Below are positions 2,108-61,344 of a DNA stretch of 64,000 bases, one piece after another (positions within the stretch are counted from its first letter, which is position 1; the number at the start of each line of letters is the position of its first letter). The position numbers and the translations under genes were made by a program. The stretch covers positions 1 to 64,000 of the forward strand of contig JAAFJG010000008.1 of assembly GCA_013298075.1 (NCBI GenBank). Direction: 5' to 3'. The notes below the pieces were generated by a model. The model saw only the letters and a program-made list of their open reading frames with translations, was not told the origin of the DNA and ran no database searches. The DNA comes from Cytophagales bacterium. Its GTDB lineage: Bacteria; Bacteroidota; Bacteroidia; Cytophagales; Microscillaceae.

Positions 2108-4303
2108 TTATCTTATCATCAATAGTTCACGATATTTTGCCAAAGGCCACAAATTATCATCAACAATTAACTCTAATTTATCAGCCGCATAACGAATATC
2201 ATCAAACAAAGATTTTACATTATTTTCATAATCGACCGCTTTTTGTTTTGTATTTTCGATAAGATTTGCTTCTTTGCGTGCATCAATCATCTTTTTAACA
2301 CCCGATTGAATTGTGCCAATATATTTAGAAATATCACTAATTGCTTCTTTGACAGTGCTTGTCCCTTCAATATCACCCATACCAATTACCATCAAATTTT
2401 TGATGTTTTTAACCAATTCATTTTGATAAGCAATAGCCGCAGGAATAATTTGATTAAGTGCCAAATCACCCATCACACGTGATTCAATTTGTACTTTTTT
2501 GATATAATTTTCTAAATTGATTTCATATCTCGCCTCGACTTCTCTATGCGTCATAATGCCTAAATTTTCGAATAAATACAAAGATTTTTCAGAAATATAC
2601 GCATCTAACGCTTCTGGCGTAGATTTCACATTAGGCAAACCACGTTTTTGAGCTTCTTCTGCCCATTCTTGAGAGTAATTATCGCCTTCGAAAAGTATAT
2701 TTTTTGATTGTTTGATATAATCACGCAAAACATTGACAATGGCAACCTCTTTTTTATCAGTCAATTCAGAAGCTTTATCTACATCTTTTTTGAATTGTTG
2801 TAATTGATTGGCAACAATTGTATTCAAAACTAACATAGGTGCGGCACAATTCGCAGAACTTCCCACTGCTCTAAACTCAAATTTATTTCCTGTAAAAGCG
2901 AAAGGAGAAGTACGATTGCGGTCGGTTGTATCTAAAATAATTTGAGGAACTTTGTTAATTCCTAATTTCATATACAAATTATCACCTTTTTCGATTTCTA
3001 TGGTCGCATTATTTTCTAATTCATCTAATACTTTTTTCATTTCTGCTCCCGCAAAAATAGAAATAATAGCAGGTGGTGCTTCGTTGGCACCCAAACGAAA
3101 ATCATTGCCCGCAGTCGCAATGCTTGCACGCAACAAATCAGCATAATCGTGAACGGCTTTGACGGTATTGACAAAAAAAGTTAAGAATTGCAAATTTTCT
3201 TTTGCTTTTGAAGTCGGAGCTAATAAATTTTTACCTGTATTTGTACCCAAAGCCCAATTATTATGTTTGCCACTTCCGTTAATTCCTGCAAATGGTTTTT
3301 CGTGAAAAAGAACTTTAAAATTATGTCTTTCTGCTACTTTTTCCATTACGTCCATCAACAAAGTATTATGATCGACTGCCAAATTTACTTCCTCAAAAGT
3401 AGGAGCGCACTCAAATTGTGCAGGAGCAACTTCATTATGACGAGTGCGAATAGGAATACCTAATTTTTGTGCTTCGATTTCAAAATCGACCATATAAGCA
3501 CGCACACGCGAAGGAATTGAGCCAAAATAATGGTCTTCTAATTGTTGTCCTTTCGCAGGAGCGTGTCCAAAAACACTTCTTCCCGCCATCATCAAATCTG
3601 GGCGAGCATAAAATAATGCTTTATCTACCAAAAAATATTCTTGTTCTGCCCCCAAAGTAGCCACTACTTTTGTAATATCTTTATCAAAATATTCGCTACA
3701 AATAGCCGTTGCTGCTTTATCTACTGCAGAAAGTGCTTTTAATAAAGGCGTTTTATAATCCAATGCTTCGCCTGTATAAGAAACAAAAATCGTAGGAATA
3801 CATAAAGTTTTGCTTCCTTCTATTTCCATAATAAAAGCAGGCGAACTCGAATCCCAAGCCGTATAACCACGTGCTTCGAAAGTCGCTCTAATTCCTCCAC
3901 TTGGAAAAGAAGACGCATCAGGTTCTTGTTGTGCCAATGCTTCTCCTTTAAATTTTTCTAAGGCATTTCCTTTTATATCTATATCATAAAAAGCATCATG
4001 TTTTTCTGCCGTTGTGCCTGTCAAAGGTTGAAACCAATGTGTATAATGCGTTACGCCTTTGGTGATTGCCCAAGTTTTCATTGCTCCAGCAATAGCATCA
4101 GCCAATTCATTATCAATTTTAAGCCCTTGTTCTACTGCTTGATGTAGTTTTTTGTACGCATCAACACTTACATATTGTCGCATTGCATTGTCATTAAATA
4201 CATTTGTTCCAAAATAGTCTGAAACTTTTGGGGCAGGCATATTGACCTGTATTGTTGCACGATTTTGTGCTGTTTCTATTGCATTAAAACGCAAGATTGC
4301 CAT
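2108..4303 (-). CDS. glnN: Glutamine synthetase type III (GlnN)
   Basis: Makes glutamine from glutamate, ammonia and ATP in the cytoplasm, the main step of ammonium assimilation. The length (731 residues) is that of the GSIII class, against about 450-470 for GSI. Class features include FPSGGIRATFEARGYTAWD (133-151), LGAEQEYFLVD (217-227) with the catalytic-site Glu residues, HNEVAPAQFE, the ATP-site region GSGKHNNW and the RTSPFAFTGNKFEFR stretch. The gene stands alone, with no PII or ammonium transporter gene beside it. A remnant of a dispersed repeat separates it from the upstream restriction operon. The start codon is followed by MAILRFNAIE, the usual N-terminus for the family. Confidence 0.97.
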   Translation of the reverse strand: MAILRFNAIETAQNRATIQVNMPAPKVSDYFGTNVFNDNAMRQYVSVDAYKKLHQAVEQGLKIDNELADAIAGAMKTWAITKGVTHYTHWFQPLTGTTAEKHDAFYDIDIKGNALEKFKGEALAQQEPDASSFPSGGIRATFEARGYTAWDSSSPAFIMEIEGSKTLCIPTIFVSYTGEALDYKTPLLKALSAVDKAATAICSEYFDKDITKVVATLGAEQEYFLVDKALFYARPDLMMAGRSVFGHAPAKGQQLEDHYFGSIPSRVRAYMVDFEIEAQKLGIPIRTRHNEVAPAQFECAPTFEEVNLAVDHNTLLMDVMEKVAERHNFKVLFHEKPFAGINGSGKHNNWALGTNTGKNLLAPTSKAKENLQFLTFFVNTVKAVHDYADLLRASIATAGNDFRLGANEAPPAIISIFAGAEMKKVLDELENNATIEIEKGDNLYMKLGINKVPQIILDTTDRNRTSPFAFTGNKFEFRAVGSSANCAAPMLVLNTIVANQLQQFKKDVDKASELTDKKEVAIVNVLRDYIKQSKNILFEGDNYSQEWAEEAQKRGLPNVKSTPEALDAYISEKSLYLFENLGIMTHREVEARYEINLENYIKKVQIESRVMGDLALNQIIPAAIAYQNELVKNIKNLMVIGMGDIEGTSTVKEAISDISKYIGTIQSGVKKMIDARKEANLIENTKQKAVDYENNVKSLFDDIRYAADKLELIVDDNLWPLAKYRELLMIR

Positions 4304-4442
4304 AAAAATATTATTTTTATTAAAAATAGATTAAATTTCGATGCAAGTTTATGAAATAAATATGAAAAAACCAAAAAGTAGGGTGTTTTTTTAGGCAGTT
4401 TTTTAAAATTGTTTGTTTTTTTTGATTTTAGTTTTTAAATTG

Positions 4443-4462
4443 CCTCCAGATTTATCTGGAGG
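4443..4462 (+). repeat. Three-hairpin element, copy 2 (hairpin 1 only)
   Basis: An intact hairpin 1 (CCTCCAGATTTATCTGGAGG) preceded by TTGAATT-like sequence, without the rest of the element. It sits between the 3' end of the restriction gene and the glnN leader on the minus strand, where it could also end transcription of the restriction operon. Confidence 0.75.
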
Positions 4463-4479
4463 ATTATATAATAGTTGTG

Positions 4480-7452: not shown

Positions 7453-7841
7453 AATTTTATTTTTTTGTTTTCATTTGTAAATACTTTGCGTTTAAATTCG
7501 GGAGTTTGTCCAAAATTCAATAATAAACCTACTTCTATTTCCGTTGCTTTTAGGTAGTTGATAAGTTGTAATTCATGCACATAAGCCAATGTTTGACTTG
7601 CTTTTAATTCTAAAATTATTTTATTATCTATTATTATATCAGCGCGATACTCGCCCACTAAAATATTTTTATAATACACTTTAATAGGTTTTTCTGTTTG
7701 GCAATGTAAGCCTTGTGATTTTAGTTCACGATACAACGCATTTTTATAATCTTTTTCTAAAAAACCAAAACCTAATTCGTTATATACTTGATAAAATGTT
7801 TTGATTATTTTATCTGTAATTTCTTTGTGTAATAATTCCAT
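7449..7841 (-). CDS. GxxExxY family protein, PD-(D/E)XK-like
   Basis: A 130-residue protein of the GxxExxY family, which is widespread in environmental bacteria. The signature G26-F-L-E29-K-D-Y32 is present, followed by D68 (YRADIII) and E78-L-K80, which together form a PD-(D/E)XK-type nuclease core. It lies between mod and res, 138 nt after mod, and overlaps the res start by 4 nt, so it is part of the restriction operon. The family is usually found as single genes, so a place inside a type III operon is notable. Whether it cuts DNA or assists the complex is unknown. Confidence 0.92.
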   Translation of the reverse strand: MELLHKEITDKIIKTFYQVYNELGFGFLEKDYKNALYRELKSQGLHCQTEKPIKVYYKNILVGEYRADIIIDNKIILELKASQTLAYVHELQLINYLKATEIEVGLLLNFGQTPEFKRKVFTNENKKIKL

Positions 7842-7879
7842 TTTTTTATTTTATTTTATTTTATTTATATTTTTTTTTA

Positions 7880-7957
7880 GCACGCAGATAACACGGATTG
7901 AGCAGATTAATACAGATATACCAGCGAAAATCCGCTCAACCCGCGTTATCCGTGTGC
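7880..7957. repeat. Palindromic repeat of the AACACGGAT family
   Basis: Two 29-bp arms (7880-7908 and 7929-7957) are near-perfect reverse complements (GCACGCAGATAACACGGATT on the left) around a 20-bp loop, so the transcript would form a long hairpin. It lies inside the restriction operon between mod and the GxxExxY gene and may attenuate downstream transcription or protect the mod message. Related sequences occur at 39302-39350 and 61623-61670. Confidence 0.8.
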
Positions 7958-7979
7958 AAAAGTTGAATAGATTTTAACC

Positions 7980-9953
7980 CTAATATCTCGTTATAAAATC
8001 AATATCAATATTTTTCTTGTTTCTATAAGATTTTATATTTTCAGAAATTTCGCGTAAATTTTTACTATCAAAATAATACCCAAAAGCAATGATAGAAGTT
8101 GGATTAAATGTTTTGTTTCCATCAATTTTTTCCAACAATGTTTTAAGATTATCCGTAGTAAAACCTTTGTCCATCAAATATAATTTACCATTCCCAAGAT
8201 ATGCTTGATAACCATCTAAATCAATATTTTCTAATTCTTGCGTCAAAACAATGCCATCATACGTTTTCCAAGTAGTGAGCAATGCGTTCAGGTCGTCTTG
8301 TGTCAATTTAGTTTCATCAAATAAAATAGTTTGATTATCAAATTCGGTGGCTTCAAACTCATAATCTTCCCAAATAGGCATCGTTTCAAATATTTTGAAC
8401 GCATTTTGAGTTTTACATTTTTCTAAACTTTTAATCGTTGCTAATGTTTCTTCGTTGGTTATTTCGCCTTTGAATTTGGCTATTTTTTGCGATAAATCTG
8501 CATTGATTTTTTTCGCAGCACGCAACAAACGTTCTTTGGTTATTTCAAAAATAGTTGGATTCGCTTTGAGTTCATCTTTTACAAAATCAAATGCTGTTTT
8601 ATTTTTCTTTTTGTCTATTTCTTCAGCTAATTGTACTAAAATAAATTTTCGATGACCATTATCTTCTGCATTGAGTTGCATAACTGCATCGCCTGTGGTG
8701 CCAGAGCCTGCGAAGAAGTCGAGAATTAGGTCAGAGGAAGAAGAGCCTAAATAGATAATTTTTTTAAGTAATTTTACAGGCTTTGGATTGGTAAATATTG
8801 ATAAATCATCAAATATTTCTTTGACTTCTTGAGTACCCTCTGTTGTTGTGCCATCATTATCCCACAAAGATTTTGAGACCCTTCCTCTCTCTTTTGCTTC
8901 AAATAAAAATCTTTTTCTTTGGGGTGCAGATTCACCACTCGCCCCAAAAACTATACGATTATCTTTTATAAGTTCCTTAAATTTATCCAAATCATTTTTC
9001 CAACTACATCCATCATTTGGCTTATATACTTTTTTAGTATTTGGATTTACAATTTCATACTGTTGATTTGGTCTCCATCCCCCAACTTGAAATGGGTCTG
9101 CTTTCCAACTTCCTCTTGGATCATTATCAGGGTTTGAAAAACCTTCAAAGTCCTTTTCTGGCAAACGAAACTCTTTTCTGTTTGCAATTTGATAGTTTAA
9201 ATTTTTTGCATAGATTAAAACATAACTATGATTATCAGAAATAATGGCTGTATTTGTTACAGATTTTGTAGAATTCCAAGCTATTTCTTTCATATAATTC
9301 TCTTCTCCAAAAATTTCGTCCATCAATAATCGTAGTTGTGCCACTTCATTATCATCAATAGAAATAAAAATAACGCCATCATCTTTGAGTAATTGTTTGG
9401 CAATATACAATCGAGGATACATAAAAGTAAGCCACGCCGAATGGCTCTTGCTTTTACTTTGCGTAAAACTTAAAATGCGTTTTGCCTTTTCTTCATCAAT
9501 ACCAATCAGATTTTGGAGTTCTTTTGTCGTAAATTTTCTATCATCATTATAGACAAAACCATCACTTCCTGTGTTATAAGGCGGGTCTATATAAATCATT
9601 TTTATTTTTTCATAATAAGCATTCGCAAGATGTTTTAGCACTTCGAGATTATCACCTTTTATCAATACATTTTCGGCATTGTTATTTTCAGGTTGCGTAT
9701 TATGTAGTTCGTTTGGTTTGAGCAAAGTAGTGGCGGGGTCGCTTGCGAGCAGTCTTGCGTAAGATTTTCCGAGCCAATCTAAGCCATAACTTTCGGCAGA
9801 AAAATTAATTTCTTTTTCGGTTAGATTATTCTTAAATTTTTCTAATTGAAAATCTCCGTTTTTATCAAAACATTGTGGAAAGTGTGTTTTCAATACTTCC
9901 AAATCATTATTTGATATTTTTATATTGTTGGTTATTTTTTGTTCTTCGTTCAT
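7980..9953 (-). CDS. mod: Type III DNA adenine methyltransferase, Mod subunit
   Basis: Site-specific DNA N6-adenine methyltransferase and specificity subunit of the type III system. Motif IV (DPPY, 123-126, in YIDPPYNTGSDGF) comes before the S-adenosylmethionine motif I (DFFAGSGTT, 412-420), the order of beta-class amino-methyltransferases to which Mod proteins belong. The roughly 285 residues between the motifs include the target-recognition region. Length (657) is normal. It is the first gene of the operon, ahead of GxxExxY and res. I saw no simple-sequence tract of the kind that makes some mod genes phase variable. The candidate promoter is at 10030-10061. Confidence 0.97.
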   Translation of the reverse strand: MNEEQKITNNIKISNNDLEVLKTHFPQCFDKNGDFQLEKFKNNLTEKEINFSAESYGLDWLGKSYARLLASDPATTLLKPNELHNTQPENNNAENVLIKGDNLEVLKHLANAYYEKIKMIYIDPPYNTGSDGFVYNDDRKFTTKELQNLIGIDEEKAKRILSFTQSKSKSHSAWLTFMYPRLYIAKQLLKDDGVIFISIDDNEVAQLRLLMDEIFGEENYMKEIAWNSTKSVTNTAIISDNHSYVLIYAKNLNYQIANRKEFRLPEKDFEGFSNPDNDPRGSWKADPFQVGGWRPNQQYEIVNPNTKKVYKPNDGCSWKNDLDKFKELIKDNRIVFGASGESAPQRKRFLFEAKERGRVSKSLWDNDGTTTEGTQEVKEIFDDLSIFTNPKPVKLLKKIIYLGSSSSDLILDFFAGSGTTGDAVMQLNAEDNGHRKFILVQLAEEIDKKKNKTAFDFVKDELKANPTIFEITKERLLRAAKKINADLSQKIAKFKGEITNEETLATIKSLEKCKTQNAFKIFETMPIWEDYEFEATEFDNQTILFDETKLTQDDLNALLTTWKTYDGIVLTQELENIDLDGYQAYLGNGKLYLMDKGFTTDNLKTLLEKIDGNKTFNPTSIIAFGYYFDSKNLREISENIKSYRNKKNIDIDFITRY

Positions 9954-49431: not shown

Positions 49432-51870
49432 TTATATTTTGACACCTATTACTAAAATATCGTCAGTTTGTGGCTCTGTACCTTCGTTTATCCAGATTTC
49501 TATTTCATATTTTAGGATTTCTTTTTGTGTTATCATTTCTTTTTGATGAATATCAAATAACAATTCTTTCATTTTTCTTATCATAAATTTTTTGCTATCA
49601 TTTCCACCAAATTGGTCTTGATAACCATCAGAAAATAAATAAAAACAAGTTTCATTTTGTACGTCAATCGTATGTTTTGTAAAGACACGATTTTGTTCTG
49701 TTTGTTCTCCACCAATAGCGGTTTTATCGCCTTTTATATGTACTAATTCATTGTTTTGAACATATATCAAAGGATTTTTTGCTCCTGCAAACTCGACCTT
49801 TTTTTCTTGATGATAAATGGTAATCAAAGCCATATCCATCCCATCTTGATTGCTTGTTTCTTCTTGTTTGAGTGCTTTTCTGATGCCTTTATGCAGTTCG
49901 TTTAAAATCAAATCAGGAGAATAAATTTGTGAAACAATAATAATTTCATTCAAAATTTGATTACCAACCATACTCATCAATGCGCCCGGAACGCCATGAC
50001 CTGTGCAGTCAATCGCAGCAATGATAGTTTTATTATCTTTATGTTCAAAAAAGTAAAAATCTCCACTCACAATATCTCTTGGTTTGAACAAAATAAAGTG
50101 ATTGGGTAAACTTTTAGTAATTTCTTCAGGAAGTGGCAAAATTGATTCTTGAATTTGTTTTGCATAGTTGATACTGCCAATAATATGCTCATTTTTTTCT
50201 ATCAATAATTGTCCTAAATTCTCTGCTGTATCTCTTTGGGCTGCAATTTCTTCATTATTTTGTGCCAATTCAATGTTTTTTTGTTCAATTTCAGTTCTTT
50301 GTTTTGCCAATGCTTGATTTTTTTTTCTTGTCAAAATAAGTCCAATCAAAACCAACAAAAAAATCAATCCCACCAAAGCAAAAGCAATCATTACAAAATA
50401 TTGAAATTGTTTTGCTTCATTTTCTTTTCTCTGATTTTCAATTTCTTTTAACTTTTTATCTTTGTTTAATAATTCAATTTCATTTTTTCTTTCTTGCTCT
50501 TTTTGTCTTTCTAAGGCACTTTTTTTTAAGATTTCAGCATCTTTTACGGCTTCTGAACGTTGTAATTCGAGGATTGCTCTGTCTTTTTTCTCAGCTAAAG
50601 ATTGTTGTTGTAAAAGCAATAATTCTTGTTTTGCTCGTTTTTGTTCGAGGTCTTGTCGGGCTAATTGTCCATCTTTTATTTTTTGACTTTGTTGCAAAAT
50701 TTGATTTTCTTTCTCTTTTTTATCCGCTTCTGCTCTTGCTTCTTTGAGTTGTGCTTCTTTAATATCTTCGCTTGCCATCATCAATTTCAATTCATTTTCA
50801 CTTCTTTCGACTACATATTGTTGTTGTTGAATATTTTGCTGTTGCAAACGTTCTTCTACCAACAATGAATCTTTGATTTGTAAATGTTTTTTGAAATATT
50901 CTAATGCCTTATCATATTTTTCTTCTTGTTGATAAAGCAAAGAAGTCGTTTGATACGCATTACTCAATGTTTTTTTATCTTTACTATCTTCTGCTAATTT
51001 TAAAGCCAAATCATTGTAATACTTTGCATTATAATAATCTTTCAAATTAAAATAAACAGACGAAAGTAAATCGTACATTTGAGCCATTTCTTTCTTATTT
51101 CCTGATTTTTCGATGCTTTTATTTGCCTCTAATAAATACCTGAGCGTATTTTGATAATCGCCAATATTTTGATAAGTAATGCCTAAATTGATGAGTGTGG
51201 CAACATTTCCTGCTTTATTTTGTTTTTTTTCTGCTGCTAAAACTTCTTCAAAAGTCCGAATCGCTAAATTATAATTATTCAAATATTTATAGGCATAACC
51301 AATATTATTTTTAGCAATCAAAATTCCTTCTTCATTTTTGATAGAAGTTTGAATTTTCAAAATTTCTAAATTATATTCTAAAGCACTTTCATAATCTTTT
51401 AAATTTTGATACGCAATAATTATTTTTCGTAAATTAGGTAGTTTTTTGATAGGGTCATTTTTATAAAGTTCCTCATATTCATTTCCGATTTTTAAATATC
51501 CGTTGAGTGCTTCTTCATATTTTTTTTGTTTCATTTCCAAATCAGCCACTTGCGAATCTATTTTATTGTCATTGGGCGTGATTTTTTTTGCTTTTTGTAA
51601 ATATTCTAATGCTTTTTCATTCAAATTTCCTTCTTGATAAACATTGGCAATTTCTTGATAAATTTGAGATAATTTTTCGGTATTATTATTTTTTTCTTCA
51701 TTTTTTGCCGCTTGCAAATAGGCACGCAAAGCATTCGAATAATCTTCTTTTTGTACGTTTACACGCGCATAACTCAACAATGAATCTGTTTTTGATTGTG
51801 CAAAAACATTCCATAGACTAAGAAAAAAAATAAATACACAGATAAATATTTTTTGAACGAGTTGGGACAT
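49432..51870 (-). CDS. TPR / SpoIIE-type protein phosphatase
   Basis: An 812-residue sensor-type phosphatase: signal peptide (ending VFAQ), about seven TPR repeats in the periplasm (25-340), a long coiled coil (345-485), a membrane helix (about 491-514), a short linker helix, and a cytoplasmic SpoIIE/PP2C domain (about 560-812) with FKPRDIVSGDFYFF, AIDCTGHGVPGALMS and FLFSDGYQDQFGG, which carry the metal-binding Asp residues. Such proteins probably dephosphorylate an anti-anti-sigma factor or similar partner in response to an external signal. No STAS or RsbW gene is seen next to it. Confidence 0.95.
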   Translation of the reverse strand: MSQLVQKIFICVFIFFLSLWNVFAQSKTDSLLSYARVNVQKEDYSNALRAYLQAAKNEEKNNNTEKLSQIYQEIANVYQEGNLNEKALEYLQKAKKITPNDNKIDSQVADLEMKQKKYEEALNGYLKIGNEYEELYKNDPIKKLPNLRKIIIAYQNLKDYESALEYNLEILKIQTSIKNEEGILIAKNNIGYAYKYLNNYNLAIRTFEEVLAAEKKQNKAGNVATLINLGITYQNIGDYQNTLRYLLEANKSIEKSGNKKEMAQMYDLLSSVYFNLKDYYNAKYYNDLALKLAEDSKDKKTLSNAYQTTSLLYQQEEKYDKALEYFKKHLQIKDSLLVEERLQQQNIQQQQYVVERSENELKLMMASEDIKEAQLKEARAEADKKEKENQILQQSQKIKDGQLARQDLEQKRAKQELLLLQQQSLAEKKDRAILELQRSEAVKDAEILKKSALERQKEQERKNEIELLNKDKKLKEIENQRKENEAKQFQYFVMIAFALVGLIFLLVLIGLILTRKKNQALAKQRTEIEQKNIELAQNNEEIAAQRDTAENLGQLLIEKNEHIIGSINYAKQIQESILPLPEEITKSLPNHFILFKPRDIVSGDFYFFEHKDNKTIIAAIDCTGHGVPGALMSMVGNQILNEIIIVSQIYSPDLILNELHKGIRKALKQEETSNQDGMDMALITIYHQEKKVEFAGAKNPLIYVQNNELVHIKGDKTAIGGEQTEQNRVFTKHTIDVQNETCFYLFSDGYQDQFGGNDSKKFMIRKMKELLFDIHQKEMITQKEILKYEIEIWINEGTEPQTDDILVIGVKI

Positions 51871-52080
51871 TGTTCGTTATTTTTTTTAATTTTTTGATTG
51901 ATTTTTATTGATCAATTTTAATAAATTATTCAAATTTCATACCTTATTGATATAGATAGAAAAAATCTTACTAATAAGTATAAAAAAATAGAAAAAATTA
52001 CAAATAATCGTATTTTATGATTTAGGTTTGTTCTTTATTTCTAATGACTAATAATTGATGGTTTTAAACCTATAAAAAAA
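51871..52080. other. Gene-free stretch
   Basis: About 210 nt of AT-rich DNA ahead of the duplicated sigma leader. It probably carries the promoters of the divergent phosphatase gene and sigma unit, but I see no exact TAnnTTTG pair and no known repeat. Confidence 0.4.
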
Positions 52081-52176
52081 TATTTTTAAAAATAAATCAA
52101 AAAAATGTTAGCAGAAAAAGAAAAAAGGAATATATAAGTAGAAGTTAGTTACAATTAAACGATAGATTTCAAAAAT

Positions 52177-52212
52177 ATGATTATTTACGACTATAATTTT
52201 CATATCATATAA
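52177..52212 (+). pseudogene. Truncated sigma gene copy 1 (11 codons)
   Basis: ATG followed by the first eight codons of the sigma gene family (MIIYDYNF), then a junction and a stop. The bases after the junction match the end of copy 2, so an internal part of the copy was deleted. Confidence 0.75.
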
Positions 52213-52323
52213 AACTTCTTAAAAAAATATTTTTAAAAATAAATCAAAAAAAATGTTAGTAGAAAAAGAAAAAAGGAATATACAAGTAGAAGTTAGTTAC
52301 AATTAAACGATAGATTTGAAAAT

Positions 52324-52611
52324 ATGATTATTTACGACTATAATTTTCGCATTAAATATAAAGTTAGTTCTGATAACGAAAGAAATAATATGCTTTCGGA
52401 ATTTAGCAAAGAACATTATCCTAAGAGTTATGCTTGGGCAGAAAGGCGTATGCAAAAAATTTCTAAGGAAGATGCTGATGATATTTTTCAAGAATCTTTA
52501 TTAAGTTTTCATAATCATCTTTTAGATAAAGATGGAAACAATTCTGAAAATTTATTAGATTTATTTTATAAAATATTTATAAATAAACTTCTTAAAAAAA
52601 AATATTTTTAA
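52324..52611 (+). pseudogene. Truncated sigma gene copy 2 (95 codons)
   Basis: A 95-residue frame that matches residues 1-92 of the full sigma-like protein (YDYNFRIKYK, MLSEFSKEHYPKSYAWAERR, DADDIFQESLLSFH) and then stops in KKKYF just before the third leader. It keeps the region-2-like part but lacks everything that follows. It may be a remnant, or a short product able to bind the anti-sigma protein without promoting transcription. Confidence 0.75.
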
Positions 52612-52698
52612 AAATAAATTAAAAAAAATGTTAGTAGAAAAAGAAAAAAGGAATATACAAGTAGAAGTTAGTTACAATTAAACGATAAATTTCAAAAT

Positions 52699-53376
52699 AT
52701 GCCAAATATTTACGACCATAATTTTCGTATTAAATACAAAGCGGGTTCTGATAATGAAAGATATAAAATGCTTTCAGAATTTAGAAAAGATCATTATCCT
52801 AAGAGTCATGCTTGGGCAAAGAGATATGATCAAAAAATTTATAAAGAAGATTCTGATGATATTTTTGAAAAATCTATGATGGTTTTCCACGAGGATCTTT
52901 TGAATAAAGAGGGAACAGATACTGAAAATTTACCAGGTTTATTTTATACTATATTTATAAACAAAGTTCTAAAAAAAATGGAGAATGATAAAAAAAATAT
53001 CATAGGTAATTTTAGAAAAACTGGTGGTCAGATATTAGACGAAGCAGATAAAATAGATATTTTAAGAATTATACTCGAGAAAATACTTTCTGACGAAAAG
53101 AATGGGCTTGATGAATATTGCAAAGCATATTATCGTGCTATGCTTGATAATTTATTAAGTCATAAAAACAAAAACTTAGGAAATAAATTAATTGCAGAAA
53201 TTAATGCTTTTATTAAAAATAATCCTACAGAATTTCAGGCTTATGTTACCAATGGTAAAAAAATATCTTTGAAAAATATAGCCAAAAAAAATACTGATTG
53301 TAGAAAAAAGTTAAGGCAGGAGTTAAAAAAATATGGAATTAAAATCAAAGAAAAAAACGAAAACAATGAAAAATAA
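52699..53376 (+). CDS. Sigma-70-like (ECF-type) factor, divergent
   Basis: A 225-residue cytoplasmic protein. The first 95 residues resemble ECF sigma region 2: a helix around HYPKSHAWAKRYDQK, then EDSDDIFEKSMMVFHEDLL (compare the usual DEDIVQDTFLxLW) and LPGLFYTIFINKVLKKM (compare YLYxIARNxxLD). The C-terminal half is basic and helical; a region 4 helix-turn-helix is not obvious, so this is a divergent member. Its stop overlaps the start of a membrane-anchored gene by 11 nt, as for a sigma/anti-sigma pair. Two truncated copies precede it. Confidence 0.72.
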   Translation: MPNIYDHNFRIKYKAGSDNERYKMLSEFRKDHYPKSHAWAKRYDQKIYKEDSDDIFEKSMMVFHEDLLNKEGTDTENLPGLFYTIFINKVLKKMENDKKNIIGNFRKTGGQILDEADKIDILRIILEKILSDEKNGLDEYCKAYYRAMLDNLLSHKNKNLGNKLIAEINAFIKNNPTEFQAYVTNGKKISLKNIAKKNTDCRKKLRQELKKYGIKIKEKNENNEK

Positions 53377-54235
53377 AATTAACAACAGCATAAATGACCA
53401 AGATAATTGGTATGAATGGATAAATCATTTTTTTGAATATTCTCTTTGCGAAGAAGATGAAATTATATTTGATAAAAAATATGATGACGATATTTTGTTT
53501 GCTAAAGAAGTAGAAAAAAGAAGATATTTTGAAAATATTATCGATCAATTAGAATTTCAAAATTTTGATGACGATGATGAAGAAGACGATGAAAATAATG
53601 AGGTAGAAAAACCCAAATCTATTTTAATTTCTAAATCATTTTTTCAAAAAAACAAAAAAATAATACTTGCCACGGCTGCAAGCATTATGTTATGTGTGAG
53701 TGTGGGTATCATTTATTATTTAAACCAAAACAACAAAGATAAATCGGTAGTGAAAAATATTAAATTAAATACCAACAAAAACACAGAAAAATCGCCTTTA
53801 AATACCAAAAACGAAACAGAAAAATCACTTGTTGTGAATGATAGTTTAGAAAATATTATTCCTAAAAAAGAGGAATTAAAAGTCATAGAAAAACAAAAAC
53901 TTGATTATTTGGCAAGTATTGACGAAAATTTACGCAAAGAAATCAAAGGCGAAAGCGGGCAAAGAGGTGAAAATAAAAAGTTTCAATTATACGAACCTAA
54001 AAATGAAATTATTGTCAAAGATAGTATTCGTTTTAAGTGGAAAGGCACCTTGGAAAAAGAAATATTGATTGTTGAAATTGTGAATAAATTTGATAAATTT
54101 ATTACTCAAATTAGTCTTAAAAACAACGAAAATATTTATTTAGGTAACTTAGAAGAAGGTTTTTTTGCTTTCAAAATCCGAGATAAAAACGAAAAAAAAT
54201 TATATACAGGTTATTTTATTGTGGAAAAAAAGTAA
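53366..54235 (+). CDS. Membrane-anchored anti-sigma-like protein
   Basis: A 289-residue protein with an acidic cytoplasmic N-terminal region (NWYEWINHFFEYSLCEEDE, then a DDDDEEDDE run), one membrane helix at about 98-119 and a periplasmic C-terminal domain (about 120-289) ending in beta strands (LEEGFFAFKIRDKNEKKLY). This topology, and the overlap with the sigma-like gene, fit an anti-sigma factor released by periplasmic signals. ATG 53366 is chosen over ATG 53333 to give an 11-nt overlap and a normal start; 53333 remains possible. No anti-sigma zinc motif is seen. Confidence 0.75.
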   Translation: MKNKINNSINDQDNWYEWINHFFEYSLCEEDEIIFDKKYDDDILFAKEVEKRRYFENIIDQLEFQNFDDDDEEDDENNEVEKPKSILISKSFFQKNKKIILATAASIMLCVSVGIIYYLNQNNKDKSVVKNIKLNTNKNTEKSPLNTKNETEKSLVVNDSLENIIPKKEELKVIEKQKLDYLASIDENLRKEIKGESGQRGENKKFQLYEPKNEIIVKDSIRFKWKGTLEKEILIVEIVNKFDKFITQISLKNNENIYLGNLEEGFFAFKIRDKNEKKLYTGYFIVEKK

Positions 54236-54347
54236 TTAAAAATTACTTCCATCCAAATATAGTTTAACATCAAAAATTTAGGTCTTATTTAATCAACTTT
54301 TAATAACAAAAATATTTTATTTTAATTTCAATTTCAAAATTATCAAC

Positions 54348-54962
54348 ATGCGTTATTACATAATTTTTATTTTCTTTCTTCTTTTAATACAAAATGTATT
54401 AGCACAAGAAAAATCAGATAGAAAAAATTACCCTGTTCTTTATTTGGGTTATAGTAATCAAGAGTTTCTAAACTCTAATTATAGTAATCTAAAAAATCAA
54501 GGCTATTTAGGTGCTGGAAATGCCTTTACTGGTGGAGTACGATTTAGATTTCTTAGCTACCTCTCTTTTGACTTGGGAGGTTTTTATGGGGGGCATGAAG
54601 TGAAAAAAAATACACCAGCATGGGCATTTTCAGATGTAAAAGTCAATACAAGTGGGATGGAAAGTTCTCTTTCTTTATTGCTTATGACTCATAAAATAAA
54701 ATGGTTTAAGCCTTATATTGGAGGAGGTTATCAAAGTTCTAATATTGCTGTAACTAAAAATAGTTCAAGTGGTTCGAGCAATAGTAATCAAAAAAATACT
54801 ACTCTTTCAAAAATGGACACATCAGGTGCTTTTTGGAATTTTAAACTATTTATCAAAATAAGCGCCATTGAATTGGCAGGCGAGTATAGACAAACATTCG
54901 GAGAAGCAAGTATGCGACATCTACAATTTACACTTAATTGTCCTTTACACATTTTAAGATAA
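54348..54962 (+). CDS. Outer-membrane beta-barrel protein
   Basis: A 204-residue exported protein: signal peptide (ending VLAQ), then alternating strands with Gly/aromatic patterns (YLGYSNQEF, GGVRFRFLSYLSFDLGGFYGG, WFKPYIGGGYQSSN, LAGEYRQTFGEASMRHLQFTLNC) typical of a small eight-stranded barrel. A Ser/Asn-rich loop (about 145-160) would face outside. It is the third gene of the unit after the sigma and anti-sigma genes. The ligand is unknown. Confidence 0.82.
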   Translation: MRYYIIFIFFLLLIQNVLAQEKSDRKNYPVLYLGYSNQEFLNSNYSNLKNQGYLGAGNAFTGGVRFRFLSYLSFDLGGFYGGHEVKKNTPAWAFSDVKVNTSGMESSLSLLLMTHKIKWFKPYIGGGYQSSNIAVTKNSSSGSSNSNQKNTTLSKMDTSGAFWNFKLFIKISAIELAGEYRQTFGEASMRHLQFTLNCPLHILR

Positions 54963-54984
54963 CAAAAAAATAAAAATATTAAAA

Positions 54985-56940
54985 ATGAAAAACATATACA
55001 TTCTCGCAATTTTACTTATTGTCATAAGCACAAGTTGCCTTTCTAAAAGGGCTTTACCTAAAGCATCTCTTGTACCTGATTACAATCAAAGAATATCTGT
55101 ACAAAATGCGTACTTCAAAAAACGCTTGAGTTTCACAGGCGTATTAATTAGTGGAAGTGTGGCAGGAGTAGGTGCTTTAGCAGCCAACGAAGCCAAACTT
55201 ACTACTTTTTATAATGATAAAAATGAAAAAATTACTAACGAACCATTAAATTATGGATTAGGCGGTGTTTCTGGATTAGGAGTTTCTTTTTTATTTCATG
55301 ATGCTGGTGGTTGGGGAAAAGAAAAAAAAGTTGATGATAAAAACAAACGTAATAAATGGATTCGAAAAAAAATAGGCAATCCTAACAATTATATAATTCA
55401 AAATACTTCTCAGTTGGAGGTATTTACTTTAGTAAAAAAAACCGCACAAAATTCTTGGGTAATAAAAAATATGCAAGATTTAGATGATTTCCTTTTGCTA
55501 TTTCCTGATACTGATGGTGGAAATATGCTTAATGTAGCAAAACAATCATTTAGCGTTTTAGCAACTAACGTAGATGCAACTATGGCGATTAGAAAAAAGT
55601 TTGAGAATACATTGGTAAAAGATTATGTAAATGAGGAAGCAGGCAATAGAGCATCAGAACAAGTAAATAATTACTCTTCTTTGGATCAATTTGCAAACCA
55701 ATACCCCTCGCATAAAAAAATATCTGAACTTGTAGCAAGAGTTACACCACAAGCCACAAGACAAGAATTAAGGGCAATGATAGGACAATTTTATCAAGCA
55801 AATACGATAGACGAAACAAAAAAACGTTATATTAACACAGCAAATAACCTTAGTGATTATTTAGATGCAATAAATATTGCTGACCCAAAAAACCAATTTT
55901 TTTCTGTTAGTACTGTCGAAAATAGGGCTTTTTCTTTAATAGAAGGTCTTCAAGATGCGATACTATTCAAAAATAGTTTCTCTAATTCTAAATACGTACA
56001 TCGATATAGTGACCGTACTTTTATTGGTACATTACAAGACGAACGTCGTAGTGGTAAAGGTATTATGCTTTACGGTAATAATGAATACTATGATGGACAG
56101 TGGGCAAATGACCTAAAAAATGGCTATGGTACCTATCAAAATACTTCTGTTATCTACCAAGGATACTTTAGAGATGGAAAATATCATGGCAAAGGCAAAC
56201 TCCAAAAAACAAATGGAGAAATATATGAGGGATCATTTGAAGATGACCTCTATCACGGAAAAGCAGAATGGGTATGTCCTGCTAAAAACATAAAAAAATA
56301 TATAGGAAGTTTTAGCAATGGTAATCCCGAAGGATATGGTGAACTCACCTATACAAATGCTGACCTATACATAGGACAATTTCAGGAGGGAAAAAGACAT
56401 GGAAAAGGTAAAATGATAGTAAAAGAAGAAGGAGATATTTTTATTCCTCGTGTGTATGAAGGCACTTTTGAGAATGACCTCAAAGAAGGTAAATTTACTC
56501 TTATACAAGAAGGAGTTAGAGATAGATGGTTAGATGTAGTTATATCTTATGAAAAAGGTGTGGAAGTTGATAGAAAAGAATATAAGGACTATTACAAATA
56601 TCGTCATACAGGTAACGAAGCAGATGAGAAGATTTATTTGGAAAAAGAAAGGGAGAGTAATGAAGAAAGAAAATATATTTGTGAAGGTAATGTATCTGTT
56701 CCTTCTTACAAGCAAAAAAATTCTGGTTATGAAGATAGAGATATTATTGTAGAATTCAAAGATGGGCTAAGTGGTACTTTATTTTTTGATCAATCTAAAG
56801 GAGAGTACTATATTTCAGATGGTGGCATATTGGGCGTATTGCCTAGGCATTATTACTATAAAAGTTTTAGTCTACTTATTAAAGCCTTGTATATTTATAA
56901 AAAAGCATCAGGTTGTATTTTACGTGAAGGTCAAAAATAA
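54985..56940 (+). CDS. MORN-repeat lipoprotein
   Basis: A 651-residue lipoprotein with lipobox STSC (C18). A Gly-rich hydrophobic stretch (about 50-70, GVLISGSVAGVGALAA) is followed by a helical middle part (about 110-340) and six or seven MORN repeats (about 345-505) of the form GxxxDGxxxGxGxxxxxxGxxYxGxF, such as YQGYFRDGKYHGKGKLQK and YIGQFQEGKRHGKGKM. The last 145 residues are charged and of unknown fold. MORN repeats bind lipids or proteins. It starts 22 nt after the barrel gene, so co-transcription is very likely. Confidence 0.9.
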   Translation: MKNIYILAILLIVISTSCLSKRALPKASLVPDYNQRISVQNAYFKKRLSFTGVLISGSVAGVGALAANEAKLTTFYNDKNEKITNEPLNYGLGGVSGLGVSFLFHDAGGWGKEKKVDDKNKRNKWIRKKIGNPNNYIIQNTSQLEVFTLVKKTAQNSWVIKNMQDLDDFLLLFPDTDGGNMLNVAKQSFSVLATNVDATMAIRKKFENTLVKDYVNEEAGNRASEQVNNYSSLDQFANQYPSHKKISELVARVTPQATRQELRAMIGQFYQANTIDETKKRYINTANNLSDYLDAINIADPKNQFFSVSTVENRAFSLIEGLQDAILFKNSFSNSKYVHRYSDRTFIGTLQDERRSGKGIMLYGNNEYYDGQWANDLKNGYGTYQNTSVIYQGYFRDGKYHGKGKLQKTNGEIYEGSFEDDLYHGKAEWVCPAKNIKKYIGSFSNGNPEGYGELTYTNADLYIGQFQEGKRHGKGKMIVKEEGDIFIPRVYEGTFENDLKEGKFTLIQEGVRDRWLDVVISYEKGVEVDRKEYKDYYKYRHTGNEADEKIYLEKERESNEERKYICEGNVSVPSYKQKNSGYEDRDIIVEFKDGLSGTLFFDQSKGEYYISDGGILGVLPRHYYYKSFSLLIKALYIYKKASGCILREGQK

Positions 56941-56981
56941 CATCTAAAAAAACAGTAATATCATTAATTTCTAAACTTATT

Positions 56982-57656
56982 ATGAAAAATATCTATATAA
57001 AATTTTTGTTTGTTTGCCTTTTATCTGCGTGTGGCAGTAACAACAATCCTGAGCCACTTGAGAATATATTTCTTGAGAAAAACCCAGAGGCACAATATGA
57101 ATGGGGAGAAAGCAAAAAAAAGCCTCTTTTTCTTGAGTCGTTCTCAAACAATAGCAGGGGCTGGTTTATTGCTAATAATTCAACTACTACTGCAAGCGTT
57201 ACAAGTGGTTATTATTTTTTAGAATCAAAAACTACCAATGGTTTTATTTGTTGGCTTAATACTTTTGTATTAAATGTGCAACAAGACTTTCAAGTAGAAA
57301 TTGCTATCAAACTTGTTTCAGGTGTCAATAATAGTGGCTTTTATTGGAGTTTTGATAGTATTTCTAAAAATGGTTATTATATGTATATCAATTCAAATCG
57401 GCAAATGAATACTGGAAAATATTTTTCTTCTGCTTTTGAAACTTGGGCGCAAAATCAAAATGTAGAAAATATTTCTATTACAGATTATAATCTACTTACA
57501 GTCAGAAAAATAGCGGATAGTTATTACTTTTTTATCAACAAGCAATTTGTGAGTTCAAAAAAATATGAATTTTTGAGTGGTAATTTAGTGCCTTTGTTTG
57601 TGGGAGGTAATAGTAGTATTCAAGTAGATTATTTGAATATCTATAAATTTGATTAA
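56982..57656 (+). CDS. Jelly-roll lipoprotein
   Basis: A 224-residue lipoprotein with lipobox LSAC (C17) and a Pro-rich linker. The mature part (about 55-224) has the concanavalin-like pattern of DUF1080/LamG-like domains: FSNNSRGWFIANN, then VEIAIKLVSG-VNNSGFYWSF and a closing IQVDYLNIYKF strand. It may bind sugar or protein at the cell surface. Located 41 nt after the MORN gene, it is the last gene of the five-gene unit, which is followed by a repeat element. Confidence 0.85.
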   Translation: MKNIYIKFLFVCLLSACGSNNNPEPLENIFLEKNPEAQYEWGESKKKPLFLESFSNNSRGWFIANNSTTTASVTSGYYFLESKTTNGFICWLNTFVLNVQQDFQVEIAIKLVSGVNNSGFYWSFDSISKNGYYMYINSNRQMNTGKYFSSAFETWAQNQNVENISITDYNLLTVRKIADSYYFFINKQFVSSKKYEFLSGNLVPLFVGGNSSIQVDYLNIYKFD

Positions 57657-57662
57657 AAAAAA

Positions 57663-57885
57663 TAGTTCTTAGGAAATTATTGCGAAACTAATTTTATTCT
57701 AATATGAATAGTAATTTATTTTGAAAACATAAAAAAATATCAATTTGAGAAACACAAAAATTTCGGCTAAAGTCAACGATTTAATTTTATAGTATCCTCC
57801 AGATAAATCTGAAGGCAATTTAAAATTTTTTTCCAAAAAATATTTTGTTTTCAAAATAAATTTCAGAAAACTATTTTTTGAAATT
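57663..57885 (-). repeat. Three-hairpin element, copy 9 (reverse, decayed)
   Basis: Right end AGTTCTTAGGAAATTATTGC at about 57664, hairpin 2 broken (TCGGCTAAAGTCAA), hairpin 1 at 57795-57814 with one mismatch (CCTCCAGATAAATCTGAAGG), left part to about 57885. It makes up most of the 57657-58006 gap. Confidence 0.83.
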
Positions 57886-58006
57886 TATACATAAAAAAAC
57901 TATCAAAAAAAGTACAAATCCATCTAAATTATAGTGATTTTTTACAAGGCGAAAACCGAAAAGCCTGTAATAGAGTAGGAAAAAATAATAATAAAACATT
58001 GATAAC

Positions 58007-58198
58007 ATGGGAAAATTCAAATATTGTCCTGCTTGTAAATCTGAAAAAAAAGGACACGAAATATGGTTATGTAAAGATTGTGGTAGTTATTATTGCCATA
58101 ATAATAATCGTAACCAATTTCTTAGATTAGCATGTCCTACTCATAATTGTAATAACAATAAATGGGGAACTGCGGGTTATGTAGACCCAAATGCATAA
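58007..58198 (+). CDS. Small zinc-ribbon protein
   Basis: A 63-residue protein with two CxxC pairs (C8-PA-C11 and C22-KD-C25), a third Cys at 30, and Cys/His near the end (C43-PTHN-C48), which suggests one or two zinc-binding knuckles. Such mini zinc ribbons can bind DNA, RNA or a protein partner. No signal peptide is present. It lies between the repeat element and the CHAT protease gene and is followed by a small stem-loop. The genomic position suggests, but does not prove, a link to the CHAT gene. Confidence 0.8.
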   Translation: MGKFKYCPACKSEKKGHEIWLCKDCGSYYCHNNNRNQFLRLACPTHNCNNNKWGTAGYVDPNA

Positions 58199-58234
58199 TA
58201 ATTTGCATAAATACTAAAAATAAGATATAATTTT

Positions 58235-58257
58235 GGTGCTATTGTAAGTATAGCACC
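58235..58257 (+). terminator. Stem-loop after the zinc-ribbon gene
   Basis: GGTGCTAT (58235-58242) pairs with ATAGCACC (58250-58257). No strong T-run follows, so termination is likely but not certain. Confidence 0.55.
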
Positions 58258-58395
58258 TTAAAATAATTTTCTACAAATCACTCAATAAATAAATGTAACC
58301 CACAAAAACAATAATTTTTCATTTCAAAAATAAAACATAATAATTTCTTGCAAATGTAATATTTTTTATATTATTTTGCATAATTCACATTTATT

Positions 58396-61344
58396 ATGTT
58401 TTTTTTTATGACTAAATTTTACTTATTTTTATTTATTTCTTATTTTGTATTTGTATTTTCTTTGACAGCACAAATTCAAAGAGATACACTTTTATCAAAT
58501 CAATATACAAAAACGGCAGATTCTTTATTTGCTATAAAAGAATATCAAAAAACCATCGATTTATGCGAAAAAATAGCAGCCTTAGAAAAAAAACATCAAC
58601 GAATAGAAAAGTGGTGGCAGGCGAATGATAAAATTTTAAAAGCAATGGTTTCTGGTGATTTTGGTAGCAATGTAGAAGAAGTTCACCAAAAAATGATAGA
58701 TATTTTAGATTATGCCAAAACAAAACTCCCAGAAAATAGCATTTTATTGGGTGCTATTTATCAAGTTTTTTCTGGTATGTATCTAAATATACAAGCAGTC
58801 AATAAATATGATTATGCTTTAAATTATATTCATCAATCCATTATGATAGAAAAAAAACAGCAAAAACTACAATACTCAAAACTTGCCTATAAATATATAT
58901 TATTAGGTCGTATAGATTTAGGATATAATTTAGGAAAACCGGGCACGTATCAAAAATGTATCAACTATTTATACGAAGCAGAAAAATACTTTAACAAAGA
59001 AACTAATGAAAATAAAGTAATAAATCAAAGAACTTTATATACTATTTTAAATGCGTATGGAGTATGTTATTCTAACATACATCAAAAAGATAATTTACAT
59101 CAAAACTTAGATAGTGCTATATATTATTATAAAAAAGGGTATCACATAGCAAAAAAAACAAATAACAACTACGATATATTAAAAACATTTTCTAATAATA
59201 TAGCAATAATATATAATAATTCATTTGGTACACCTTTCAAAAATTTTAATTATGATAGTGCTTTTGTATATCTAAAAGAATCAGAAGTCTATTCTCTAAA
59301 GTTAATAGATAATAGAGTAGAATCTAAAATAGAACTCTCAAACTTATATTATTTTTTAGGTAGTAATGCCAATCATAGAAAAAAAATAGATTCATCTTTA
59401 TACTATGCTCATAAATCTATACAAGTTATTTATCCTAATTTTAAAGATAATGACGTAATGGCTGTTCCTAATTTTTCTAATCCAAATGATATTCTAAACT
59501 ATCAACAAACAATGAAAGTAGTTTTTTATAAAATGGTGATTAGTTTTACTATTTATACACAAACAAAAGATAAAAAATATTTATCATTAGCAGAAACACT
59601 TATTTTTAAATTGGATACTTTGAATAATCATCTCAAAAAAGATTTTACCAAAGGCAAAGAAAGGTTTGATTTGTTATCTCATGTATCTCATGAATATAAT
59701 GGAATTTTATCGTATTTAGTAAAAGAATTTCCAGAGCGAAAAGAAAGCATAGAAAAGCAAGCATTTTACTTCACAGAATCACAACGTAATAATTTATTGT
59801 CAATTCATTTACCACAATTAAACAAAGAAAAAAACCTTCCTATTGCTATCAAAGACAATATGAAAGGACTCAAACAACAATATATAAACAAAAATAATGA
59901 AATAGAAGTAGAAGAAATCAAACTCAGAAATGATACTACAATTATCAATAAAAGTAAAATTACGACATATATTGATGTTTTAACAAAAGAAAAAATTGAT
60001 ATTTTTTCAAAAATAGCCGAAATAGAAGATACTATTAGAAGAAATTATCCTGATTATTATCGACGTGGTGAAAATATAGATTCGCCCACCTACCAAAATG
60101 TACAATCATATTTAGATGAGGAAACAATCATTCTAAATTATAATATAATTGCTGGCTCAAAAACAGATTCTTTATTAGTTTGGTGTTTTGATAATACACA
60201 AACTAAAATGTATATGATAGATACCAAAGAATTGGTTGGTAAATTTATTCCTCGTTTGGATAGATTTAGAAAATCTTGCCATGATGATATTGTAAATTCT
60301 GAATATATATACATAGAAGAAGGATATGAGTTATACAAAATTTTGGTTGCTCCAATAGTATCTCAATTAAAAGGTAAAAAAAGGCTTTTATTGATAGGAG
60401 ATGCGTATTTTAGTATATTTCCATTCAAAGCATTGCTTACACAATCTGTAAAATATGACAAAAACAAAGAAACAGCATGGGAAACTATGCCTTATCTAAC
60501 AAAACAATTTCCAAAAGGCATCAGTATTTATCCATCTTTGAGTTTGCTCATGCAAAATTATCGTTTGAAAGATAATACATTTGAAAATGAATTACAAATA
60601 TATGCCCCTGTTTTTGACCAAAAAAATGGTTCACAACCTTATAATCCATTTTTATTATCAGCCATAGAAGCAAGTACTAAATCAGGACAAAGAGGTATTT
60701 TTAAAAAAAATGGTGATATAATTAAATTTCAACCGATTAAAAGTACCGTCAATGAACACAATAAAATTATTGATATTTTAAAAAAATTAAAATTAAAATA
60801 TAAATCGTATTTACGTGAAAATGCGACAGAAGACCATTTATTGAAACCACAAAATTCAAGAATATTGCATTTTATTACGCATAGTTTTTATAATATTTCC
60901 TATCCAAATTTTTCGGGAATTGCTTTTTATCAACCTGATAAAATAGATAGTTTATTGATAAAAGAAAATAAAAAACCTGATGGATTATTGATGTTTGATG
61001 AAATTCCTTTGATAGATATGAAGGCTGATTTGATTATATTGAGTAGTTGTGAATCGGGCATTGGCGAAATAGCCAATAGTAATGTAACTTCTTTGTCTTA
61101 TAAATTTTTGTGTGCAGGCGTGCCTAATGTGATTTCAACTTTATGGCGAATTGATGATGAAAAAACATCTTTTTTGTTTCCTTTATTTTATCAATATTTA
61201 TACGAAAATAATAATAAAAATAATCAAAAATATGATTATGCGGAAGCAATGCAAAAAGCAACTCAAGAAATGATAAATAAAAGAAAAACTGCAAAACCTT
61301 ATTTTTGGGCAGGTTTTCAAATAGAATATTCGTGGGGGAAGTAA
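58396..61344 (+). CDS. Secreted TPR-CHAT protease
   Basis: A 982-residue caspase-like peptidase. A signal peptide (ending LTAQ), starting at ATG 58396 or the ATG 12 nt later, is followed by a TPR solenoid (about 30-430), a helical linker (about 430-590) and the CHAT domain (about 640-982). The catalytic dyad is visible as H829 (HFITHSF) and C885 (ILSSCESG), and the closing CAGVPNVISTLWRIDDE is conserved in CHAT proteins. CHAT peptidases cleave partner proteins in stress, defence and cell-death pathways. The signal peptide places it in the periplasm, on the same side as the C-terminal domain of the anti-sigma-like protein. A repeat and the zinc-ribbon gene separate it from the five-gene unit. 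Confidence 0.93.
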   Translation: MFFFMTKFYLFLFISYFVFVFSLTAQIQRDTLLSNQYTKTADSLFAIKEYQKTIDLCEKIAALEKKHQRIEKWWQANDKILKAMVSGDFGSNVEEVHQKMIDILDYAKTKLPENSILLGAIYQVFSGMYLNIQAVNKYDYALNYIHQSIMIEKKQQKLQYSKLAYKYILLGRIDLGYNLGKPGTYQKCINYLYEAEKYFNKETNENKVINQRTLYTILNAYGVCYSNIHQKDNLHQNLDSAIYYYKKGYHIAKKTNNNYDILKTFSNNIAIIYNNSFGTPFKNFNYDSAFVYLKESEVYSLKLIDNRVESKIELSNLYYFLGSNANHRKKIDSSLYYAHKSIQVIYPNFKDNDVMAVPNFSNPNDILNYQQTMKVVFYKMVISFTIYTQTKDKKYLSLAETLIFKLDTLNNHLKKDFTKGKERFDLLSHVSHEYNGILSYLVKEFPERKESIEKQAFYFTESQRNNLLSIHLPQLNKEKNLPIAIKDNMKGLKQQYINKNNEIEVEEIKLRNDTTIINKSKITTYIDVLTKEKIDIFSKIAEIEDTIRRNYPDYYRRGENIDSPTYQNVQSYLDEETIILNYNIIAGSKTDSLLVWCFDNTQTKMYMIDTKELVGKFIPRLDRFRKSCHDDIVNSEYIYIEEGYELYKILVAPIVSQLKGKKRLLLIGDAYFSIFPFKALLTQSVKYDKNKETAWETMPYLTKQFPKGISIYPSLSLLMQNYRLKDNTFENELQIYAPVFDQKNGSQPYNPFLLSAIEASTKSGQRGIFKKNGDIIKFQPIKSTVNEHNKIIDILKKLKLKYKSYLRENATEDHLLKPQNSRILHFITHSFYNISYPNFSGIAFYQPDKIDSLLIKENKKPDGLLMFDEIPLIDMKADLIILSSCESGIGEIANSNVTSLSYKFLCAGVPNVISTLWRIDDEKTSFLFPLFYQYLYENNNKNNQKYDYAEAMQKATQEMINKRKTAKPYFWAGFQIEYSWGK

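Follow-up and report, generated by a model that had tools for sequence, protein, structure and literature searches.

An exported TPR-CHAT protease in conserved linkage with an ECF-type sigma factor and its membrane anti-sigma factor

Could an exported protease of the CHAT family switch on a sigma factor by acting on the anti-sigma factor that holds it at the membrane? This question is raised by a stretch of 64,000 nucleotides, hereafter the window, from a Cytophagales bacterium (Microscillaceae; GCA_013298075.1, contig JAAFJG010000008.1, positions 1-64,000). Its + strand encodes a divergent extracytoplasmic function (ECF)-like sigma factor of 225 residues (52699..53376), a single-pass anti-sigma factor of 300 residues (53333..54235) whose gene overlaps that of the sigma factor by 44 bp and, beyond a beta-barrel protein, two lipoproteins and a zinc ribbon, an exported TPR-CHAT protease of 982 residues (58396..61344). 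A first-pass annotation, which placed all of these genes correctly, had drawn a parallel with type III-E clustered regularly interspaced short palindromic repeats (CRISPR) systems and proposed that the protease might cut the periplasmic part of the anti-sigma protein. We find that the sigma factor, anti-sigma factor and TPR-CHAT protease constitute, as judged from comparative sequence analysis, a conserved three-gene unit that recurs, free of CRISPR genes, across many bacteria. Conserved linkage, matched topology, co-evolution and a conserved arginine resembling a cut site together point to the protease as the probable activator of the sigma factor.

The three proteins and their conserved linkage

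The protease bears a signal peptide, a TPR region and a CHAT domain (residues 643-975) that is recovered by PF12770 at 3.7e-40 (138.6 bits vs a cut-off of 24) and retains the His/Cys dyad, H829 and C885, in agreement with the first-pass annotation. The closest fold to the window CHAT is that of Csx29 (8eex, Foldseek E 3e-14; 7y9x VIA, Z 30.4, 578 aligned residues, 11% identity). Further fold matches are to separase (5fby, Z 26.2, 327 aligned residues, 3.5 A) and to DdvA of Myxococcus xanthus (Z 19.7 over 590 residues), the latter also being the PDB protein that the CHAT profile matches best by sequence, with E 5.7e-6 vs 1e-3 for Csx29. CHATs occur in half of the 247 Bacteroidota genomes sampled. 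In a tree of 111 CHAT domains, that of the window falls within a set of 23 (97% support), 16 of which are linked to the module; inspection adds one further linked member, L055, which has a partial anti-sigma gene at a contig edge. Fused anti-sigma/CHAT proteins were not found, there being no anti-sigma domain in the 113 CHAT proteins of the set.

Pfam returned nothing useful for the window sigma and anti-sigma proteins, the full sigma copy being without any match, and family profiles were therefore required. When 25 CHAT-linked sigma factors of other genomes, the window and its genus excluded, are built into a profile, the window sigma factor ranks just below the training set (E=3.8e-5). The predicted structure of this protein (predicted local distance difference test, pLDDT, 79) aligns to region 2 of ECF sigma factors, with SigW first (5wuq, Z 10.7, 94 aligned residues, 2.8 A) and sigma-E second (Z 10.6), and nearly all of the top matches are ECF sigma factors. 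Foldseek alone gave no significant match to this model (E 0.22), though ECF sigma/anti-sigma complexes came first. By profile match and predicted structure, the window protein is thus an ECF-type sigma factor. For region 4, the window copy has no Pfam match and its C-terminal half is modelled at low confidence; 10 of 28 relatives match region 4.

A profile of the anti-sigma factors of other modules recovers the window anti-sigma protein at E=7e-11; six members of this profile match zf-HC2 and NCBIfam anti-sigma models, while the window copy matches none directly. From its profile match and gene order, we regard it as a class I membrane anti-sigma factor, with an N-terminal anti-sigma domain, one transmembrane segment (residues 110-128), a linker and a C-terminal Ig-like domain (53978..54232), encoded directly 3' of the sigma gene. 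The extracytoplasmic parts of these anti-sigma factors are of two types: one consists of TPR repeats, the other of an Ig-like domain marked by a GLYYW...GKF signature. The window protein is of the Ig type, with a degenerate version of that domain. Weak matches of the Ig domain to Por_Secre_tail (E 0.0018-0.06) led us to consider a type IX secretion sorting domain, a reading made doubtful by their weakness and by the occurrence of the domain in phyla from which type IX secretion is not known. Separately, a type IX sorting tail is seen on 11 of 97 proteins neighbouring the modules.

Conserved linkage between the CHAT and sigma genes was one of the points on which the first-pass annotation had staked its proposal. 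We collected CHAT relatives regardless of their neighbours, 20 loci coming from related genomes and 80 from 84,980 species genomes. Among the 1083 genes around these CHATs, sigma genes account for 24 of the 532 within three genes as against 1 of the 551 further away (P=4e-7). The usual order is a CHAT gene convergent with an anti-sigma gene that is itself preceded by the sigma gene (CHAT-> <-anti-sigma<-sigma), and it is found in Bacteroidota, Ignavibacteriota, Balneolota, Acidobacteriota and Aminicenantes. A second module lies on contig C72 (L045) of the genome from which the window comes, the genus-sister genome G001 has one (L047), and further modules are present in G004, G006 and G018 of the same order.

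The reverse search, in which the 247 Bacteroidota genomes were scanned with the anti-sigma factor alone, gave a congruent result. For the Ig type there are eight strong full-length matches in six genomes, and a TPR-CHAT gene lies beside all eight, adjacent in seven and 4.2 kb away in the window. For the TPR type there are 48 strong matches (E up to about 1e-20), with a CHAT within about 7 kb in at least 32 and none there in 9; this is our own tally and a lower bound, as 7 of the 48 could not be assigned. The genus g39 offers a presence-absence comparison: of the 10 genomes in which a strong TPR-type anti-sigma factor is present, 9 have a CHAT, and of the 4 that lack such a factor none does; in 8/8 genomes the CHAT lies 2.1-4.5 kb from the sigma/anti-sigma pair. 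We therefore hold with high confidence that the sigma factor, the anti-sigma factor and the exported TPR-CHAT form one functional unit. Linkage without common function, through neighbourhood drift or gene abundance, is highly improbable: some Cytophagales carry many CHAT and ECF genes (one genome has 22 CHATs) and four open reading frames separate the anti-sigma and CHAT genes of the window, but the enrichment of sigma genes near CHATs, the complete reciprocal result, the recurrence in several phyla in the same orientation and the co-evolution described below all speak against it.

Topology, co-evolution and a putative cleavage site

The two partners appear to be matched in their location. A signal peptide is present on nearly all linked CHATs that are complete; those of L069 and L126 seemed to lack it but have it when an earlier start is taken. 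CHATs beside TPR-type anti-sigma factors also end in a transmembrane anchor and a basic tail (10/10 in a first set, two of which score weakly against the threshold, then 9/9 loci and 11/12), which is absent from those beside other anti-sigma factors (0/24 and 0/5). In the lineage of L112 and L128, the anti-sigma factor has lost its transmembrane segment and the CHAT has no signal peptide. CHAT and anti-sigma factor thus appear to remain in one compartment.

Co-evolution was assessed from tree distances in 19 Ig-type modules by partial Mantel tests. Sigma distances track those of the anti-sigma N-domain (r=0.73), as Ig-domain distances do those of CHAT (r=0.57, remaining 0.54 given sigma, P=2e-4); given the Ig domain, sigma and CHAT are nearly independent (0.16, P=0.05). 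From these distances we infer a pattern such as would be expected if the sigma factor contacts the N-domain inside the cell and the CHAT contacts the Ig domain outside it.

The linkers between the transmembrane segment and the C-terminal domain are poorly conserved apart from an arginine with a small residue directly after it. R[SGTDN] precedes the Ig domain in 17 of 19 Ig-type proteins vs 9.0 expected on shuffling, and R[SGN] follows the transmembrane segment in 34 of 42 TPR-type proteins vs 12.9 expected; 0/2000 shuffles reached either count, and lysine controls are not enriched. The motif of the window is R211-G212, located 11 residues ahead of the conserved proline of the Ig domain, with Arg211 (in Q-R-G; 53963..53965) as the candidate scissile residue. 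Cleavage after arginine is known for several clan CD proteases, namely gingipain-R, MALT1 and separase (PMC4626109).

These features can be accommodated in the following scheme. An envelope signal would activate the TPR-CHAT docked on the Ig-like domain of the anti-sigma factor; the activated CHAT would cut the linker after the conserved arginine, as the site-1 step of regulated intramembrane proteolysis; and a site-2 protease, for which one M50 homologue in the window genome is a possible candidate, would complete the release, upon which the freed sigma factor would direct its promoters. The linkage that the first-pass annotation had called for is conserved, and topology, co-evolution and linker arginine fit proteolysis, from which we infer the cleavage. 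On this evidence the exported CHAT probably cleaves the anti-sigma factor and frees the sigma factor, whereas the claim that the exact cut falls after the conserved arginine (R211-G in the window) is one that we would put just short of an even bet.

Several observations weigh against this reading. For about a third of the strong TPR-type anti-sigma factors no neighbouring CHAT was found, although several of these retain the arginine motif, and the window CHAT itself lies four genes from the anti-sigma gene and is not convergent with it. The TPR-type CHATs are largely one clade, and the correlation of type with topology therefore amounts to few independent events. The other module of the window genome has Lys-Ser in place of the arginine, two cytosolic members carry lysine, and the control set of other anti-sigma factors for the motif comprised only four proteins. 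The residue of separase that reads the P1 arginine is D2151, to which K670 of Csx29 is equivalent (PMC9729208); when aligned on a conserved tryptophan, this position is S925 in the window CHAT, and arginine specificity is therefore unsupported by that position. We had considered the invariant Asp921 of the CHAT as the arginine-reading S1 residue, and rejected it since the D2151/K670 position falls on S925.

The foremost alternative is that the CHAT is a sensor or co-inhibitor, which would bind the Ig or TPR ectodomain and hold or release it by conformation, while cutting some other target or nothing at all. Co-evolution and topology prove contact at most, not cutting, the AlphaFold and PDB matches are silent on activity, and in DdvA the anti-sigma and CHAT parts belong to one polypeptide. 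Nevertheless, the His/Cys dyad is present in all 34 linked CHATs, although the conservation of C885 is partly by construction because the CHAT search pattern included the cysteine, and the Arg-small motif is retained in both types of anti-sigma factor; we regard this sensor role as unlikely. A second alternative makes the CHAT an output, in that the sigma factor would induce the CHAT gene and the protease would strike envelope or invader proteins, with another protease cutting the anti-sigma factor. Neighbouring genes are often under the control of a sigma factor, and CHAT proteases serve as effectors in Craspase and gasdermin systems (PMC9729208). However, no promoter-like motif shared by the sigma and CHAT upstream regions rose above shuffles in 28 modules, albeit in a weak test, and neither the specific co-evolution of Ig domain and CHAT nor the match of type and topology would be expected of a mere target gene, which makes the output role quite improbable. 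Proteolytic release of the sigma factor by the CHAT thus remains the reading that we prefer.

Neighbouring genes, upstream repeats and variant modules

The first-pass annotation had counted the envelope genes between the anti-sigma and CHAT genes as part of the system. These comprise an outer-membrane beta-barrel protein (54348..54962; OMP_b-brl, 4.7e-6), a MORN-repeat lipoprotein (54985..56940; five MORN repeats, 4e-24) and a lipoprotein of unknown family, earlier described as a jelly-roll, that matched no Pfam family (56982..57656). We rejected them as module members, since such genes are absent from the other modules; for the MORN lipoprotein, 36 related genomes yield no relative at E<=1e-20, the window genome alone having it among 37. 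The barrel gene and the two lipoprotein genes are thus local additions outside the conserved module. They are followed by the zinc-ribbon open reading frame of 63 residues (58007..58198). On the other side, the divergent neighbour of the module (49432-51870, - strand) encodes a TPR protein with a transmembrane segment and a SpoIIE-type phosphatase domain. The suggestion that the sigma factor might drive defence genes found no support either, as there is no defence enrichment among the 97 neighbour proteins, only five scattered PADLOC matches; in PADLOC, the linked CHATs match mainly a generic TPR model.

The 5' end of the sigma gene recurs upstream of the full gene in two truncated copies in tandem, each preceded by a near-identical 106-bp repeat. 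The first repeat (52073-52178) leads into a remnant with its ATG at 52178 and a stop after about 11-12 codons (together 52073..52213, + strand); the second (52221-52326) leads into a 95-residue copy with region 2 only (52324-52611; together 52221..52611, + strand); and a third (52596..52701, + strand) precedes the full gene. The 95-residue copy is 65% identical to the full protein and outscores it as sigma region 2, with E=9e-7 for the profile of CHAT-linked sigma factors and 0.027 for Sigma70_r2. Repeats 2 and 3 are 97% identical, and the adjoining coding copies have diverged (synonymous divergence, dS, 0.48; non-synonymous, dN, 0.20); such upstream identity despite coding divergence is what would be expected of a promoter under autoregulation or of local gene conversion. 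Elsewhere, a 58-bp match of 91% identity to the repeat (G000:C89:26151-26208; L227) sits about 135 bp ahead of the gene that encodes a 312-residue secreted leucine-rich-repeat protein, and this gene is accordingly a candidate target of the sigma factor, with the upstream match as a candidate promoter.

The anti-sigma gene also has a composite history. In its transmembrane segment and linker it is closest to the second module of its own genome (64%, with nearly identical DNA), and in its Ig domain to that of G001 (37%), from which the closest CHAT likewise comes (39%), a case in point for the co-evolution of Ig domain and CHAT. The two paralogues (L045, 11095-12048, and window, 53333-54235) thus have near-identical DNA for the transmembrane segment and linker and diverged ends, and are probably mosaics produced by recombination.

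Some other loci depart from the usual arrangement. In L047 (12374-13429) a transposase-like gene stands directly upstream of a CHAT that has lost its N-terminus and signal peptide, a probable case of damage by insertion. L048 of G001 (3028-9737) is an operon of an ECF sigma factor, a 406-residue single-pass protein, a 388-residue exported protein with an HExxH-like metalloprotease motif and TPR, and a 1238-residue CHAT, and is possibly a third module type. In L189 (1-579) a TPR-type sigma/anti-sigma pair that lacks a CHAT in its vicinity is adjoined by a gene for a caspase-like protein of the p20 type, and another clan CD protease may there take the place of CHAT. In L218 (G255), from a genome without CHAT, the sigma factor and TPR-type anti-sigma factor share one open frame of about 323 residues, by fusion or decay.

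Relation to known systems

One close precedent is the DdvS-DdvA pair of M. xanthus (PDB 8rot, 8rw5, 8rlz), an ECF sigma factor and a transmembrane anti-sigma factor with a C-terminal CHAT. As in the window, anti-sigma factor and TPR-CHAT belong to one ECF pathway, and the CHAT of DdvA keeps the His and Cys in alignment; unlike DdvA, which is one chain of 991 residues, the window has separate genes and a CHAT exported by itself. DdvS controls an antiphage island (PMC12288465), and no such link is seen at the window module. In type III-E CRISPR, Csx29 cleaves Csx30, the inhibitor of an ECF-like sigma factor (PMC10028731), and this CASP/Craspase system presents the same trio by role, namely a TPR-CHAT protease, a sigma inhibitor and an ECF-type sigma factor. 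Unlike type III-E, the window module has no Cas7-11 or CRISPR genes beside it: the RAMP and Cas1 matches of the window genome are on contigs C90, C24, C144 and C63 and not on C132 or C72, with no long fused RAMP frame. Moreover, Csx29 is RNA-bound and cytosolic, whereas the window CHAT is exported and its anti-sigma partner is a membrane protein. Both known relatives, the DdvA and Csx29 systems, are linked to defence.

The RseA/DegS/RseP and RsiW pathways likewise feature a single-pass anti-sigma factor of an ECF sigma factor with a large extracytoplasmic part, and here too the genome encodes an M50 protease, but the proposed site-1 protease would be a separase-like CHAT in place of DegS or PrsW, and the ectodomain is Ig-like or TPR. 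With eukaryotic separase, which cuts after arginine, the window CHAT shares a TPR/helical scaffold and a C-terminal caspase-fold protease; the P1-arginine-reading aspartate is not conserved in it, and there is no securin.

With DdvA and the Csx29/Csx30/CASP-sigma system, fused and CRISPR-recruited versions of the trio are thus already known, and the first-pass claim of an undescribed combination has to be narrowed, since in DdvA, whose structure is solved, an anti-sigma factor and a CHAT are already fused; the literature searched, from which many subscription papers are missing, gave no description of the split, exported trio that is spread across several phyla. We tentatively put forward, as a view that may sooner prove wrong than right, that these modules are a CRISPR-free counterpart of Craspase, widespread in Bacteroidota and other phyla, in which an exported or membrane-anchored TPR-CHAT would serve an ECF anti-sigma factor as its dedicated site-1 protease, cutting at a conserved Arg-small site, with DdvA and Csx29/Csx30/CASP-sigma as derived or sister forms.

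To our knowledge, most CHAT proteases are without a known substrate. If the proposed cleavage is true, it would provide a substrate, a docking domain and a cut site for a large subset of the CHATs of Bacteroidota, and would add a new kind of envelope-signal protease to the ECF pathways. It also suggests an origin for the sigma, inhibitor and TPR-CHAT trio of type III-E, as a module that may have pre-existed without CRISPR.

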